DNA of 64,000 nucleotides from Pelagerythrobacter marensis. Lineage in GTDB: Bacteria; Pseudomonadota; Alphaproteobacteria; Sphingomonadales; Sphingomonadaceae. A program made the translations under genes and the position numbers. How positions within the stretch are numbered: the first letter of the stretch is position 1; every line of letters begins with the position of its first letter. The stretch is from positions 1,489,001 through 1,553,000 of the forward strand of contig NZ_CP144918.1 of assembly GCF_036700095.1 (NCBI RefSeq), written 5' to 3'. This document shows positions 37,755 through 42,879 of the stretch, piece by piece. A model generated the notes under the pieces. That model was not told the DNA's origin. It did not search any database and saw nothing but the letters and a program-made list of their open reading frames with translations.

Positions 37755-38959
37755 GCTTGCCTCGTGTCGGTGAATGCCTGCTCCATGTCCGCGATCAGGT
37801 CGGCGGCATCCTCCAGCCCGACCGACAGGCGCACGCCGCGGCGATGGGCCGGGTTCCAGTGCGCCGGCGGCCAAGCGGTGGCGGTGCGGATGGCGGCGGG
37901 ATCGACCGGCAGGGCCAGGCTTTCGTATCCGCCCCAGCTGAACCCGATTCCGAACAGCGACAGGCGGTCGACGAAGCGTTCGGCAATCTGCGCCTCGTCG
38001 GATGCGAAGACGAAGCTGAACAGGCCGCAGCCGCCGGTGAAGTCGCGGCGCCACAGCTCGTGCCCCGGCGCACCCGGCAGCATCGGGCACAGGACGTGGG
38101 CGACTTCGGGCCGACCGGCCAGCCATTCGGCGAGCGCGAGGGCCGTCGCGCTCGCGCGTTCGAGCCGCAGGCCCATCGTCCGCAGGCCGCGCAGGGCCAG
38201 CGCGGCATCGTCGGGCGAGACGACCTGGCCCAGCGCCTGCGCGGTCTGGCGCAGGCGGCGATACCAGCGCTCGCCCCCGCTGGCCGATCCCATCATCAGG
38301 TCCGAATGGCCGCCGACGTGCTTGGTCAGGCTCATGATCGCGATGTCGCACCCGCGTTCGAGCGCGGGGAAGCCGAGGGGGGAGGCCCAGGTGTTGTCGA
38401 TCAGGCTGACGGCGCCGTTCTCGCGCGCAATCGCGGCCAGCGCTGGAACGTCGCAGACCTCCATCGTCAGGCTGCCCGGGTTTTCGAACAGGACAGCCTT
38501 GGTCCGGTCGCAGAAGCGGCCGGCGAAACCGTCGATGTCGAGCGGATCGAAGAACCGCGCCTCCACCCCCATGCGGTTGAGCAGGCCATTGGCCATGATC
38601 CGGCTTGGCTCATAGGCATTGTCGGTCACCAGCAGGACATCGCCGGGCTTGAGCACCGCCAGCAGCGCCCCCGCAATGGCGGCGACGCCGCTGGGATAGA
38701 GCACCGTGCCCGCCGCGCCCGGCTCGATCGCGGTCAGCGCGTCGGCCAGGGCCCACTGGGTCGGCGCGCCGCGGCGGCCGTAGAAGAAGCGGCCGTCCTC
38801 GTTCGCCTTGCCGCCATCCTTCAGCGCGGCGGTGTCGGGGTAGAGGTGGGTGCTGGCGCGCCACACGGGGGGATTGACGACCGGCCCGGTCCACTCGGGC
38901 CGCCGGCCCGCGCCGGTCAATCGGGTGTTGGTGCCCTTCGGTCCGTCTTTGGAATTCAC
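37751..38959 (-). CDS. metC: Cystathionine beta-lyase, PLP-dependent
   Basis: Cleaves cystathionine to homocysteine, ammonia and pyruvate for methionine synthesis. The 402-residue Cys/Met-metabolism PLP enzyme has RRGAPTQWALADAL, YPSGVAAIAGALLA, DNTWASPLGFPAL and the PLP lysine in SLTKHVGGHSD (Lys213). The pattern THLYPDTAAL and GVRLSVGLED agrees with MetC more than with cystathionine gamma-synthase. The GTG at 38959 overlaps the sseA stop (GTGA). Role as a gamma-lyase cannot be excluded from sequence. Confidence 0.88.
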   Translation of the reverse strand: MNSKDGPKGTNTRLTGAGRRPEWTGPVVNPPVWRASTHLYPDTAALKDGGKANEDGRFFYGRRGAPTQWALADALTAIEPGAAGTVLYPSGVAAIAGALLAVLKPGDVLLVTDNAYEPSRIMANGLLNRMGVEARFFDPLDIDGFAGRFCDRTKAVLFENPGSLTMEVCDVPALAAIARENGAVSLIDNTWASPLGFPALERGCDIAIMSLTKHVGGHSDLMMGSASGGERWYRRLRQTAQALGQVVSPDDAALALRGLRTMGLRLERASATALALAEWLAGRPEVAHVLCPMLPGAPGHELWRRDFTGGCGLFSFVFASDEAQIAERFVDRLSLFGIGFSWGGYESLALPVDPAAIRTATAWPPAHWNPAHRRGVRLSVGLEDAADLIADMEQAFTDTRQA

Positions 38960-39801
38960 GCGACCGCTCCCGCTTCCTTGGGCGTATCGGGGTCCGCGCC
39001 CCATTCGCTCCAGCTGCCGTCGTATAGCGCGATATCGGCCTTGCCCAACAGCTCGAGGGCGAAGAGGACGACCGCCGCCGTCACGCCGCTGCCGCATGTC
39101 GTCGTGACCGGCCGGTCGAGGTCGATACCCGCCGCGGCGAAGGCGGCGCGCAGTTCGTTCGCGGATTTGAAAGTGCCGTCGTCGTTCAGAAGCGCGCGGT
39201 AATGCAAGTGGCGCGCGCCGGGGATGTGGCCGCCGGGCAGGCCGTGGACGGCATCCTCCGCCTCCCCGGTAAAGCGCGCCGCGTCGCGCGCATCGACCAC
39301 CTGTTCGCGCCGCTCCCGCAAGTTGGCGAGCATTTCGGCCTTGGTCCTGATCCGCGCCGGGTCGGGCCGGGGGGCAGGCCCTTGCGGCGCGCGCGCGGGC
39401 GGGGCGTCGCCCGTCTCCAGCGCCCGCCCTTCGGCCCGCCACCGGGCCAGCCCGCCGTCGAGGATCGCGACATCGCTCCATCCGAAAAGGCGGAAGACGA
39501 ACCAGGCCCGGGCCGCGCTGCGCAAGGCGCTGTCGTCGTAGAGAACGACCCGGCTGCCGTCCTCGATGCCCAGGGCGGCAAGACGCTCCGCAAACTGCCC
39601 GGCGCGCGGGACGGCGGCGGGGACGGGCGAGGTCTCGTCCTGCAGGGTGGCAAGGTCGAGGAAGCGTGCGCCGGGAATGTGGCCTTGGGCGAACTCCGCC
39701 CGGGCATCGCGCCCGGCCGCCGGCAGGTGCTTGCTGGCGTCGAGCACGGTAACGGTGCCGAGGTTCTCCGCCAGCCAGCCGGTCGAAACGAGAATATCCA
39801 T
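38956..39801 (-). CDS. sseA: 3-mercaptopyruvate sulfurtransferase (tandem rhodanese)
   Basis: Transfers sulfur from 3-mercaptopyruvate to a thiol or cyanide acceptor. The 281-residue protein contains two rhodanese domains: an inactive N-terminal one (VSTGWLAENLGTVTVLDAS, GARFLDL) and a catalytic C-terminal one with the loop CGSGVTA (Cys236), the hallmark of mercaptopyruvate rather than thiosulfate enzymes. It leads the sseA-metC-mscS overlap chain. The start ATG is at 39801; the repeat-rich gap upstream is described separately. Confidence 0.93.
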   Translation of the reverse strand: MDILVSTGWLAENLGTVTVLDASKHLPAAGRDARAEFAQGHIPGARFLDLATLQDETSPVPAAVPRAGQFAERLAALGIEDGSRVVLYDDSALRSAARAWFVFRLFGWSDVAILDGGLARWRAEGRALETGDAPPARAPQGPAPRPDPARIRTKAEMLANLRERREQVVDARDAARFTGEAEDAVHGLPGGHIPGARHLHYRALLNDDGTFKSANELRAAFAAAGIDLDRPVTTTCGSGVTAAVVLFALELLGKADIALYDGSWSEWGADPDTPKEAGAVA

Positions 39802-39864
39802 GGCCGAACGGGTAGCGGTGGCGACCCGCCCCGTCGAGGGGGCAGGGCGGGAAGCCCGACCGAT

Positions 39865-39992
39865 CCCCAGCGTAGGCTGGGGCCTCAGGCCGCTGGCGCT
39901 GTGTCTGATACCTCCCCGAGCCCCTGCGAAGGCAGGGGCCTCAGGCCGCTGGCGTGTCGCCTGACAGCACGAGACCCCAGCCTGCGCTGGGG
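39865..39992. repeat. Three copies of a palindromic intergenic repeat
   Basis: Inverted repeats at 39865-39882 (minus orientation), 39921-39938 (minus) and 39975-39992 (plus). Each has a 6-bp G/C arm pair around a CCTNCG loop. The first two are bordered by the conserved flank AGCGCCAGCGGCCTGAGG (read on the minus strand). The same family recurs at 40585-40768, 57751-57925, 58469 and 63030. Confidence 0.8.
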
Positions 39993-40075
39993 ATCGGAGA
40001 GGGGGAGAGGAAAGGGGGGGGGGGGGAGGAAAGGGGGGAGGAAGGGGAGAGAAACGGAAAGGCAGGCAAGCAGGC
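39993..40075. repeat. Polypurine tract with a 13-G run
   Basis: Almost only G and A on the plus strand from about 39993 to 40058, with 13 consecutive G at 40014-40026 and further runs of four to six G. Likely slippage-prone and able to form G-quadruplex or triplex DNA. The purine bias continues to about 40075. Confidence 0.7.
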
Positions 40076-40165
40076 ACAGCCCATCACCCACACCCCACCA
40101 TCCGCTGGCGAATGCGGACCATACGCCGGGGCATACAGGCAAGCGGACGGAATCGGCCGGTGCCG

Positions 40166-40209
40166 CCTGGGCATCACAGGATTGCCACCTGGGCGTCACA
40201 GGGTTGCCT
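40166..40209. repeat. Two tandem 22-bp units at the distal end of the structured element
   Basis: Units 40166-40187 and 40188-40209 (CCTGGGCRTCACAGGRTTGC followed by CA or CT) agree at 19 of 22 positions. Read on the minus strand they follow the last hairpin of the candidate RNA. Confidence 0.75.
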
Positions 40210-40515
40210 TGGTAACATCGTTGCGAACGGCGAAAGGGGTTACGGCAACCTTTCGCTCGGCCCTTAAGGGCTGCGAGGCGAGATACGGCCAGGGCTCGCC
40301 GGCACCGTATCCGTCGGGGAGTGTCCCTGGCTCTGCGGCGTTGAGGCCCACCGCAGGGCGGGAAGGGACAGGTCCCCCGAAAACTCCTCGCATACCGGCA
40401 AAGGGGGCTTTCTCTAGGGTCACTAGCCCCCCGAGGCACCGGCCGTCTGGACGAAGCGGACTTACGTGACGCGTACACGCTCCGCCCCCGTCGCTTTGTG
40501 CCAGTGTGGACTGGC
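40210..40515 (-). ncRNA. Candidate structured RNA: chain of seven hairpins behind a strong promoter
   Basis: Going 5' to 3' on the minus strand, paired segments are: 515-511 with 504-500; 485-481 with 460-456 (inner 479-476 with 468-465); 431-425 with 409-403 (7 bp, AGCCCCC-type); 380-375 with 319-314, enclosing 370-364 with 328-322 (7 bp) and 356-351 with 338-333; 311-305 with 288-282 (CCGTATC/GATACGG); 277-274 with 259-256 around the palindrome GCCCTTAAGGGC; 255-249 with 237-231 (add 40000 to each). The hairpins cover the segment almost without gaps. A 75-codon GTG-started reading frame (40423-40196, ending VRNDVTKATL) overlaps it, so a small protein is the alternative. I found no RNase P, tmRNA, SRP or 6S signature. 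Confidence 0.4.
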
Positions 40516-40521
40516 TGGGCT

Positions 40522-40550
40522 CCTATAACCCAATGGGTTACAATTGTCAA
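40522..40550 (-). promoter_or_regulatory. Strong sigma-70-type promoter with embedded palindromic operator
   Basis: On the minus strand: TTGACA at 40550-40545 (perfect -35), a 17-bp spacer, and TATAGG at 40527-40522 (-10). The spacer and -10 are covered by TAACCCA-A-TGGGTTA (40526-40540), a perfect 7-bp inverted repeat, so a repressor could block it. Transcription would run into the hairpin chain from about 40515. It is the best -35/-10 match I noticed in the window. Confidence 0.65.
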
Positions 40551-40584
40551 GCCATTTTTGCCACAATCTGCCCCCTTTCCCGAG

Positions 40585-40768
40585 TCCCAGCGCAGGCTGG
40601 GACCTCATGCTATCGGGCATAGCGCCAGCGGCCCGAGGCCCCAGCCTGCGCTGGGGCTCGGAAGGGTATCGGGCGCAGCGCCAGCGGCTTGAGGTCCCCG
40701 CCTGCGCTGGGGCTCGGGAGGGTTATTGGTGTTGTGTCGGTGGTGGGAGGCCCCTGCCTTCGCAGGGG
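40585..40768. repeat. Four more copies of the palindromic intergenic repeat
   Basis: Copies at 40585-40602 (minus orientation), 40639-40656, 40695-40712 (one mispair) and 40751-40768 (plus). Two carry the upstream flank AGCGCCAGCGGC(C/T)(C/T)GAGG. Together with the three copies near 39.9 kb they bracket the structured element and end 47 bp from the purN stop. Confidence 0.8.
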
Positions 40769-40814
40769 TTCGGGAAGGGGGGCCGGTGCCGTCTCGGCCC
40801 TGCCGAAAGCGAGG

Positions 40815-41780
40815 CTAGAATTCGTCGGCCGCGTCCATCAGGGCGGTGAGTTTCTTCGGGGCGACCGCGCGCCAGCTGCGTGCCAGCCACTGGTCGATCG
40901 CTTCCCAGTCGGTATCGCCCAGGTCGAGGCGAATGCCGATCCAGCCGTCGCCGAAATAGGGCGGGCGGTAATAGCGCGCCGGATCGTTCTCGATCAGCTG
41001 CGCCTGTTCGTCCGCGCCGCCGATCTTGGCGAGCAGGGCGGTCACCCCGTCGCCGTGATGATCGACGCTGACCCAGGCGAATTTCTTGCCTTTTGCGATC
41101 CCGAAGCACGGCATCCCGTGGCTCAGCGTCTCTTCCGCGCGGGGAAGCGCCATGGCCCGTTCGCGCACGCGCGCCACCAGCCATTCCGGGTCGAACGGGC
41201 GGGAGACATATTGCGCCAGCACCCGGGGATAGAGCTGATGCTCGGCCAGCTTGACCCGCTCCGCCAGCGTGTCCGGCGTATCGCCGGGGATCACGGCGAC
41301 TTCGGCCCGGCCCAGCACTTCGCCCATGTCGAGATCGTCGGTCACGAGATGGACCGAAGCGCCGGCGCGGCTGTCGCCCGCCGCGATCGCGCGCGCATGG
41401 GTGTCGAGGCCGGGATAGCGGGGCAGCAGCGAGGGGTGGATATTCAGCATCTTCCCCTCCCAACCGGCCACGAAATCTGGCCCGAGAATGCGCATGTAGC
41501 CGGCCAGCGCGACATATTCCGCCCCCGCGGCGCGGATCGCCGCATCCATCGCCGCGTCGTGATCGGCGCGCTTCATGCCCCGGTGGGACAGGGCGAACGT
41601 CGGCACCCCTTCCGCCTCGGCCAGCGCCAGCGCCTCCGCCGCCGGATCGTTGCTGGCGACCAGCACGATTTCGTAGGCGGCGCCCGGCTGGCGCGCGGCA
41701 TAGAGCAGGGCGGCCATATTGGTGCCCTTGCCCGATACGAGCACGGCGACTTTCGCCGGGGCACGCACGCTGTCAGGCAA
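40815..41780 (-). CDS. purN: Phosphoribosylglycinamide formyltransferase PurN fused to a MmcQ/YjbR-like domain
   Basis: Third step of purine synthesis: transfers formyl from 10-formyl-THF to GAR. Residues 8-195 are the PurN domain with [10 protein letters not shown] (GAR binding), catalytic Asn113 and His115 in [10 protein letters not shown], and the Asp-containing VTDDLDMG loop (about 148-151). Residues about 197-315 form a second domain: [25 protein letters not shown] ... [16 protein letters not shown] ... [21 protein letters not shown], characteristic of the DNA-binding MmcQ/YjbR (DUF419) fold. Ordinary PurN is about 200-220 residues, this is 321, and the frame is continuous. The start overlaps purM by 8 nt. 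Confidence 0.93.
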
Positions 41781-42879
41781 GGTGGCGCGCCTCCCACGCC
41801 TCGCCGGCGTGCCATGTTCCGGCGCTGCCGCGCACCGTGCAGCCCCGCTCGCCCGCCTCGATCCTGCCGATGCGCAGCACGCGCTCGCCCGCAGCCTCCA
41901 GCGCGCGGGAGAGATCGTCGGCGGCGGCCTCCTCCACCGCCAGGACCATGCCCGTGCCGCAATTGAACGTGCGCGCCATTTCGCCAGGCGCGATGTCGCC
42001 CTGTTCCTGAAGGAACGCCATCAGCGGCGGTTGCGGCCAGCCGTCCGCATCGACCAGCGCATGCGCGCCGTCCGGCAGGACGCGCGGAATGTTCTCCAGC
42101 AGCCCGCCGCCGGTGATGTGCGCGAGCGCCGCGATTTTCCCTGCGCGGATCGCGGGCAGGAGCGGCTTCACGTAGATCCGGGTCGGCGCGATCAGCGCCT
42201 CGATCAGCGTGCGTGTGTCGTCGAACGGCGCAGCGTCGCCGAGGCGCCAGCCCTTGTCCCCCGCCAGCCGCCGGACGAGCGAATAGCCGTTCGAATGAAC
42301 GCCGGAACTGGCCAGCCCCAGCAGGACCTGCCCGGGCGCCACCGCTTCGCCGGTCAGCTGCTCGCCGCGCTCCACGGCGCCGACGCAGAAGCCGGCAAGA
42401 TCGTAATCGCCGGCGGCATACATGCCCGGCATTTCGGCGGTTTCCCCGCCGATCAGCGCACAGCCCGCCTCGCGGCAGCCGCCGGCAATGCCCGCGATCA
42501 CGCGCTCGGCAACCCCGGTCTCGAGCTTGCCGGTGGCGAAATAATCCAGGAAAAACAGCGGTTCCGCACCCTGGACGATCAGATCGTTGACGCACATGGC
42601 GACCAGATCGATGCCGACCGTGTCGTGCAGGTCGTGATCGATCGCCAGCTTGAGCTTGGTCCCCACGCCGTCGTTCGCGGCGACCAGCAGCGGATCGGAA
42701 TAGCCGGCCGCGCGCGGATCGAAAAAGCCGCCGAAGCCGCCGATCTCGCCATCGGCGCCGGGGCGCGCCGTGGCCTTGACCAGCGGCCCGATCGCCCTGA
42801 CGAGCGCGTTGCCGGCATCGATCGAGACACCGGCCTGGGCGTAGGTATAGCCGCCGGTCGTATTTTCTTGGTCAGACAT
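41773..42879 (-). CDS. purM: Phosphoribosylformylglycinamidine cyclo-ligase (AIR synthase) PurM
   Basis: Fifth step of purine synthesis, closing the imidazole ring with ATP. The 368-residue protein has [29 protein letters not shown], the segment [31 protein letters not shown] and [16 protein letters not shown], all family hallmarks. purM-purN overlap, as in many proteobacteria. It is divergent from the DUF2066-like gene; the 72-bp gap must hold both promoters. Confidence 0.97.

Follow-up and report, generated by a model that had tools for sequence, protein, structure and literature searches.

A multi-copy family of predicted large structured RNAs in Pelagerythrobacter marensis, with relatives behind a common promoter palindrome

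LhrC, Qrr and alpha-r15 are multicopy regulatory sRNAs, short molecules folding into simple hairpins, whose near-identical, trans-acting copies are transcribed from their own promoters. The RNA described here differs from these in being ~420 nt long, in its predicted long-range helices, and in its copy number of up to 11, with sequences homogenised inside the genome. Another set of bacterial RNAs (6S RNA, the CsrB-type titrating RNAs, RNase P RNA, tmRNA and SRP RNA) are abundant, structured and bound by proteins; none of these families was matched in Rfam at the loci scanned. REP/BIME elements with RAYT (Y1) transposases are similar in that palindromes cluster at each copy and the sites are intergenic; unlike in REP/BIME systems, Y1_Tnp was not found in the P. 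marensis genome and it is the RNA, not the flanking palindrome, that is conserved across genera. OLE, GOLLD and ROOL, according to PMC12286853, are long, highly structured RNAs with conserved loops, long-range pairing and a poorly known function, as is the RNA considered here. GOLLD and ROOL are described in the same text as phage- and prophage-encoded, often close to tRNA islands; unlike GOLLD and ROOL as portrayed there, the RNA of P. marensis has no match in the phage and plasmid collections searched and resides in many dispersed chromosomal copies. No description of these RNAs was found among the best-ranked matches of the literature searched, most subscription papers lying outside the search.

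The window, the whole stretch of 64,000 nucleotides analysed, hosts one copy of the putative RNA gene, called family A, on the minus strand (40098..40515), as delimited by 11 genomic copies and a cross-genus alignment. The transcript would start at ~40515 and end just past the terminal hairpin, the ends 40515 and 40098 having been deduced from the promoter position and from the last conserved hairpin, respectively. The perfect TTGACA and the TATAGG at 17-bp spacing reported in the original prediction were found in the minus strand at 40550-40545 and 40527-40522. The -35 box (40545..40550) is present in all 11 P. marensis copies and in 16/16 loci tried for the cross-genus alignment, and GGYTA is conserved across genera at the -10 box (40522..40527). 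A sigma-70 scan of 38500-42500 reported no promoter, because the scan demands a T at the end of the -10 hexamer; a simple scan of the same interval listed no intrinsic terminator, and the 3' hairpin lacks a U-run. Folding of the minus strand from 40196 to 40520 yields -149.2 kcal/mol (z = -2.44; 0/100 shuffles equal), a signal exceeding chance yet modest alone. The locus by itself is a middling candidate, and its copies and relatives, rather than the single window sequence, provide the strong evidence. Sequence conservation, both among the 11 P. marensis copies and among copies of five species, runs from slightly upstream of the -35 box down to ~40098. The observation made at 40196..40560 is confirmed, but the 3' limit had been set wrongly: the predicted RNA runs ~100 nt further, and this 3' segment is nearly invariant, the most conserved part of the whole. 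The most variable part in the alignments, ~40309-40400, contains the 'compound helix' at 40314-40380 on which much weight had been placed.

A frame of 75 codons opening with GTG (40196..40423, minus strand) had been put forward as a small protein or as part of a dual-function RNA. The frame is indeed open in the window copy, the only one of 24 copies in which it is found as predicted; a second copy has 75 codons in a frame largely shifted, and in the other 22/24 the frame is reduced to 3-60 codons. The frame was therefore rejected as a gene: this pattern of indels rules out the small-protein reading, barring translation of another frame, and the chance that the locus encodes a small protein or a dual-function RNA is negligible.

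Eleven full copies of the RNA gene reside in the 2.9-Mb P. marensis genome. The ten copies outside the window are 95-97% identical to the window copy, essentially full length, found on both strands and spread across ~1.9 Mb, the next-best matches being scraps of 15-29 bases. That the locus belongs to a multi-copy RNA gene family is near certain. Genes next to the copies differ, being purN and a rhodanese gene in the window (the product encoded at 40815-41780, minus strand, is a PurN-like formyl transferase with a C-terminal YjbR domain according to Pfam), and gmk, glutamate-cysteine ligase, citrate synthase and ftsK elsewhere (all checked with Pfam); this variety of neighbours points to action of the RNA in trans. 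Among six other genomes of the genus, four carry the RNA (one copy in G001, two in G004, four in G006, and 12 matching pieces, including halves at contig ends, in G005) and two lack it, so that copy number varies from 0 to 11 within the genus. Four G005 contigs (C9, C11, C13 and C16) end inside or right after RNA copies, and annotation of short-read assemblies will therefore miss or split copies of this RNA. Three species, P. marinus, P. rhizovicinus and P. aerophilus, are the only ones to have an exact 21-mer of the 3' domain (15 stretches) among 84,980 species genomes; the collection is devoid of short contigs, and records very close to the window's genome may be excluded from it. The same 21-mer is absent from the viral contigs searched, and the RNA has no match in 72,556 plasmid and 50,697 phage records. 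A phage or plasmid origin was rejected for lack of matches in the three collections.

Outside the genus, the search was extended to the family and the order. A DNA search of 397 family genomes, in which the best two candidates per genome were scored, brought up, along with many chance-level matches, diverged relatives in other genera (33/397 matched, many of the matches being short). Of eight diverged loci that were read, seven keep the promoter, the arms of the long-range helices and the 3' hairpin; a contig end truncates the remaining one (L078). The covariance model R1, built on the 3' domain (40099..40299, minus strand), the most conserved one, finds the window copy, which is in its training set, with 173 bits (E 1.8e-42). 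With the best nine candidates per genome scored, R1 has matches in 6/296 genomes of the order, all from one family (P. marensis, G005, G095, G199, G514 and G223), a count including two taken as false. Promoter and architecture are evident in G199 and G095; the matches in G514 (L141, 29.2 bits) and G223 (L142, 27.5 bits) were rejected, as they lie in coding-looking DNA and show no promoter pattern. The A-type 3' hairpin pattern was detected in 11/397 family genomes, in 3/96 genera, and nowhere when read backwards. Outside the genus it occurs in two genera (seven times in G098, ten in G220, seven in G175, five in G300, four in G330, once in G226). This pattern recovers only 5/11 P. marensis copies, and two or nine candidates were scored per genome in the searches above; copy counts are for both reasons lower bounds. 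Clearly distinct RNA subtypes are found side by side in G098. One of the seven G175 loci (L182, C1:778969) is a truncated 3' fragment with no promoter, evidence from sequence that copies may decay.

The predicted fold is closed by long-range helices. For its analysis, 18 of 20 references entered alignment A1 and 11 of the 20 alignment A2, L017 and L005 having been left out, and 14/16 references entered A3. All features that follow are on the minus strand. A 5' hairpin (P1, helix 1; GCCAG...CTGGC, 40500..40515) includes a covarying CG/UA pair. The closing helix (helix 2), joining 40487..40494 to 40143..40150, is paired in 96.6% of cells and mostly invariant. A second long-range helix (helix 5) is formed by GGCCGGTGCC (40435..40444) with GGCACCGGCC (40155..40164), one pair being UA in 6/11 and CG in 5/11 sequences, and the same numbers hold for one pair of the terminal 3' hairpin (helix 16; GTCCGC-ATTCGCCA-GCGGAT, 40100..40119), the pattern of which is specific across the 397 genomes (control 0). 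Within the species-variable domain, the hairpin GCGGTGGGCCTCAACGCCGC (40335..40354) features the stem-loop motif GGTGG-N-CCTCAA-CGCC, found by eye also in family B, described below, and in the G300 members of g100.

RNAalifold on 11 sequences returned 82 pairs, 24 of them with compensatory changes; with five proposed loop pairs added, 87 pairs were counted, and 96.8% of cells are paired. Changes at both sides of a pair were seen in 24/87 pairs against 14.0 +/- 2.0 in shuffled alignments (0/500), and against 2-8 when the partner was slid, a comparison favoured by having derived the structure from the same sequences on which it was counted. Pair types are no more numerous than in shuffles (248/500). 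The consensus fold reaches -91.8 when computed for the proposed strand, against -79.4 for the opposite one and -36.8 +/- 4.5 for 30 column-shuffled alignments; single-sequence folding prefers the RNA strand in 6/10 members only. Compensatory changes support the predicted fold. The loop of the 3' hairpin (YUCGCC) could pair with GCGAG in all 11 family A sequences, where variation is confined to G-C/G-U, and with GCGAACC in the six B loci tried. The loop sequence is absent from both G199 copies, and no pattern match to a partner was found in 3/5 loci of family C; because of the two G199 copies, the loop pairing is regarded as hypothetical.

At the gathering threshold of Rfam 15, the window and 34 further loci (families A, B and C and other promoter-pattern loci) matched only a tRNA elsewhere in the window. 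Hallmarks of RNase P, tmRNA, 6S and SRP had not been found in the original prediction. A permissive scan of 39850-40800 gave 28 weak matches far below threshold, 17 of them to miRNA families, located mostly on palindromes and all taken as chance. The OLE, GOLLD and ROOL covariance models had no match at the gathering threshold, nor do they figure among the 28. The original prediction of a structured minus-strand RNA is borne out by covariation and by the absence of any Rfam match.

Two sister families were recognised in P. marensis. Family B includes two putative RNA genes of ~580 nt (L115 at C1:87841 and L121 at C1:1305674), identical over ~855 bp from the start of the promoter; family C includes two genes of ~530 nt (L129 at C1:2101628 and L130 at C1:2897069), identical over ~518 bp. 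A sixteenth RNA gene of the genome (L248, C1:1247585) is single, and has both the promoter palindrome and a 3' hairpin. The two C loci match the A model in full length and at the expected 3' end with 25 bits and E 6e-5, a value holding within 108 kb of chosen loci; across 296 genomes the coding-looking matches of 29.2 and 27.5 bits score higher. B loci were not recovered by the A covariance model (6 bits); their promoter, 3' hairpin and motifs lead us to group them provisionally with A and C. By eye, a long-range GGCCGG/CCGGCC helix and a 3' hairpin following GGCGT(T/C)A or GGCGNNA are features of all three families. Both-side changes were counted in 15/176 pairs in B and in 19/138 pairs in C, in folds based on four sequences each out of 12 references (seven B, five C) and computed without controls; L205 and L203 yielded no 3' end in this comparison. 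In an independent check, the B/C 3' hairpin alone was searched for in the 397 family genomes and found in 14 genomes of six genera (control 0). Twelve of the 20 loci so detected were read, the other eight being already known promoter sites. Nine, L248 among them, carry the palindrome-promoter 386-517 nt upstream, according to a looser pattern used without control, and in three a contig end lies 69-190 nt upstream. Judging by the nine, either end of the gene predicts the other. Overall, A, B and C probably belong together on sequence grounds.

The spacer of the promoter contains a 15-bp palindrome, TAACCCAATGGGTTA (AACC-N5-GGTT; 40526..40540), a candidate operator for a repressor. The pattern TTGACA-N5-AACC-N5-GGNTA has 17 exact sites in the P. 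marensis genome, which correspond to the 11 A, two B and two C genes, clpB and surE. Read backwards, it has no exact site and five at up to two mismatches; nuoH (L131), at which one mismatch is present, and the sites with two mismatches are for this reason uncertain. Pfam confirms Clp_N, SurE and NADHdh in the products of the P. marensis genes, and FtsK_4TM for G001. The exact GGTTA form was monitored in 40 genomes and is present in ten, P. marensis included (15 sites in G009, nine in G004, five in G012, for example), the backwards control being 0 throughout. Among 21 of these loci that were read, eight belong to family B (G001, G003, G004, G005) and three to family C (G004, G006, G019), two precede clpB and two ftsK (G001 and G002 in either case), five are non-coding (G009, G012), and one (L199, G019) was left unassigned. 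The protein genes found behind the palindrome are thus clpB (L123, L192, L197), surE (L128) and, in two congeners, ftsK (L216, L206), and suggest that a single regulon may exist in this bacterial family. The non-coding loci (L198, L207 and L214 in G009, with its 15 promoter sites, L191 and L200 in G012, with five) are other multi-copy stretches lying behind the palindrome-promoter; by eye they are dissimilar to A, B and C, and they have no Rfam match. A second repeated promoter-like block, TTGACATCGTGACGCTNTTTGGTTA, followed slightly downstream by GATAGTGCGATTCG, was noticed at three P. marensis sites (L132, L134 and L136, at C1:487298, 1641059 and 2274452). The promoters regulated by MqsA (AACCT-N3-AGGTT), as described in PMC4894380, have in common with those analysed here the AACC/GGTT half-sites, the palindrome length and the association with stress genes; the inner T/A of the MqsA site given there is not conserved in the palindrome, and the likeness concerns the operator sequence only. 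It may serve as a lead only.

A different palindrome brackets the RNA gene. Repeats matching CCCCAGCGCAGGCTGGGG are located downstream (39865-39882, 39921-39938, 39975-39992) and upstream (40585-40602, 40639-40656, 40695-40712, 40751-40768) of the RNA. With up to three mismatches, CCCCAGCGCAGGCTGGGG has eight matches at seven places in the entire window, all within 39865-40768, against 0.35 expected for the window; palindromic repeats had been noticed on both sides of the segment already in the original prediction. In the genome, 33 of the 40 exact matches are found no more than 450 bp away from one of the 11 RNA copies, a territory corresponding to 0.48% of the DNA, as do 21 of the 48 matches with one or two mismatches. 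In the P. marensis genome, exact palindromes are found within 450 bp on both sides of 11/11 copies. Five exact palindromes are arranged in tandem, with ~150-bp spacing, at C1:1603557-1604165, with no RNA copy nearby. Y1_Tnp (PF01797) was not found in P. marensis, G005 or G006, and is present in 1/7 genomes of the genus (G001, interrupted by an internal stop). A REP/RAYT composite transposon was rejected, no Y1 transposase having been found in the P. marensis genome. The flanking palindromes may serve a strongly transcribed gene as terminators or insulators.

Comparison of the 1.5-kb flanks of RNA-carrying loci, with the element masked, showed that one site (L024) is common to all five RNA-bearing species (in G005 on two contigs), and four (L013, L020, L021, L023) are shared with G005. 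The flanks of L001 (downstream, on the rhodanese side) and L016 match on one side only, and no partner site was found in this comparison for four of the 11 P. marensis copies (L006, L010, L018, L022). Copies of P. marensis are 0.961-0.995 identical to each other, and 0.776-0.828 identical to the copy residing at the same site in another species (nine comparisons). Concerted evolution is the conclusion, because copies of one genome resemble each other more than they resemble same-site copies. The G006 copies (0.947-0.967) and the G005 copies (0.890-0.998; six of the 12 pieces were taken in) form one clade each; the two G004 copies do not exclude that of G001, identity between these two species being 0.950-0.955. 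Arrangements vary at the gmk site. In G001-G004, 50-132 bp and no RNA separate gmk from a short-chain dehydrogenase gene; in G006 the RNA occupies the gap between the two genes; in P. marensis and G005 the RNA is found between gmk and other DNA, and between the glutamate-cysteine ligase gene and the dehydrogenase gene. These arrangements suggest that the RNA arrived at a new site, and that later exchange between copies rearranged the chromosome; alternatively, the RNA may have been lost in the ancestor of G001-G004. An empty site, as expected for an insertion element or a MITE, is thus available at gmk, the single site examined. Flanks compared by eye for target-site duplications turned out to be diverged and homogenised.

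The best explanation, which we favour with confidence slightly better than even, is that the locus encodes a ~420-nt trans-acting RNA of a new superfamily, the dosage of which is raised by the copies and which is controlled by one repressor. The transcript, the repressor and the function are those that we infer from sequence. With the spacer palindrome AACC-N5-GGTT free, RNA polymerase would transcribe the RNA strongly; a dimeric repressor bound there would prevent this. Stress and division genes would answer to that repressor too, namely clpB and surE in P. marensis and ftsK in two congeners, so that some stress or growth signal would probably induce the RNAs. Two long-range helices would close the transcript and the 3' hairpin would cap it; the YUCGCC loop of this hairpin may pair with GCGAG, located in the middle of either the same RNA or a neighbour molecule. 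The RNA would act in trans, most likely by binding a protein or by oligomerising, in a way that depends on its amount; were this so, the need for a given amount would explain why many copies are kept alike by gene conversion. The flanking palindromes would probably be terminators or insulators, and copy number would rise by rare duplication into new intergenic sites.

The patchy detection (11/397 genomes for the A-type 3' pattern) is as compatible with a selfish element as with a host function. A mobile unit had been envisaged from the start, and variable copy number, an empty site and clustering of palindromes speak for it, while the lack of a Y1 transposase and the sites common to several species speak against. 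In its developed form, unlikely in our opinion though to be taken seriously, this reading holds that the RNA is a non-autonomous mobile element serving its own spread, for instance by guiding, scaffolding or templating the work of a transposase or reverse transcriptase provided in trans, and that copy number reflects transposition, not host use. The range of 0-11 copies in one genus, the patchiness across genera, the adjoining of gmk and dehydrogenase genes in G001-G004 where G006 has the RNA in between, the palindromes at 11/11 copies and the decayed fragment of G175 all agree with such an element; against it stand the occurrence of the promoter palindrome at host genes, the absence of matches in plasmid and phage records and of the 21-mer in viral contigs, and the failure to find Y1 proteins in P. 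marensis, G005 and G006 (a search confined to Y1). That palindromes and inner stems work as DNA, as sites for gyrase, nucleoid proteins or recombination, transcription being incidental, is very improbable: 33/40 exact palindromes do cluster at the copies, and the gmk, glutamate-cysteine ligase and dehydrogenase arrangements of G006 vs. P. marensis and G005 are those of exchange between copies, but the -35 and -10 boxes are conserved, the consensus fold is better on one strand, and nested long-range helices are not simple cruciforms.

Also improbable, if somewhat less so, is a dispersed complex made of RNA only and self-assembling in the manner of GOLLD, ROOL or OLE; A, B and C would then associate into homo- or hetero-oligomers by way of the conserved 3' loop. 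Size, long-range helices, and a loop with its complementary segment in A (11/11) and in six B loci are in keeping with it, and there is a published precedent (PMC12286853); the putative loop pairing is nonetheless absent in both G199 copies, and 3/5 C loci have no partner by pattern. A wider conjecture, itself improbable, is that a superfamily of large ornate chromosomal RNAs, with up to ~16 gene copies per genome, assembles with itself and its sister types, through the 3' loop, into an RNA or RNP machine, which would be de-repressed along with ClpB, SurE and, in congeners, FtsK, and would spread and be kept uniform as rRNA genes are.

Returning to the trans-acting RNA favoured above, our best reading is that of a superfamily of large (~340-580 nt) RNAs in Erythrobacteraceae/Sphingomonadaceae, represented in P. 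marensis by A, B, C and one or more further types. By sequence comparison, its marks are conserved -35 and -10 boxes, a covarying fold, the multi-copy state, concerted evolution and the common promoter palindrome. Named strains of the genus are available, and the family offers a single operator with which to capture its regulator, a single RNA for tagging, and a comparison between species whose copies number 1, 2, 4 or 11. It bears on the concerted evolution of a gene other than those for rRNA, and on the rearrangement of bacterial chromosomes. Large structured bacterial RNAs have often turned out to be core machinery or to embody new RNA chemistry, and 11 homogenised copies, sister families, conserved promoter boxes and a common palindrome are unlikely to be mere decoration.
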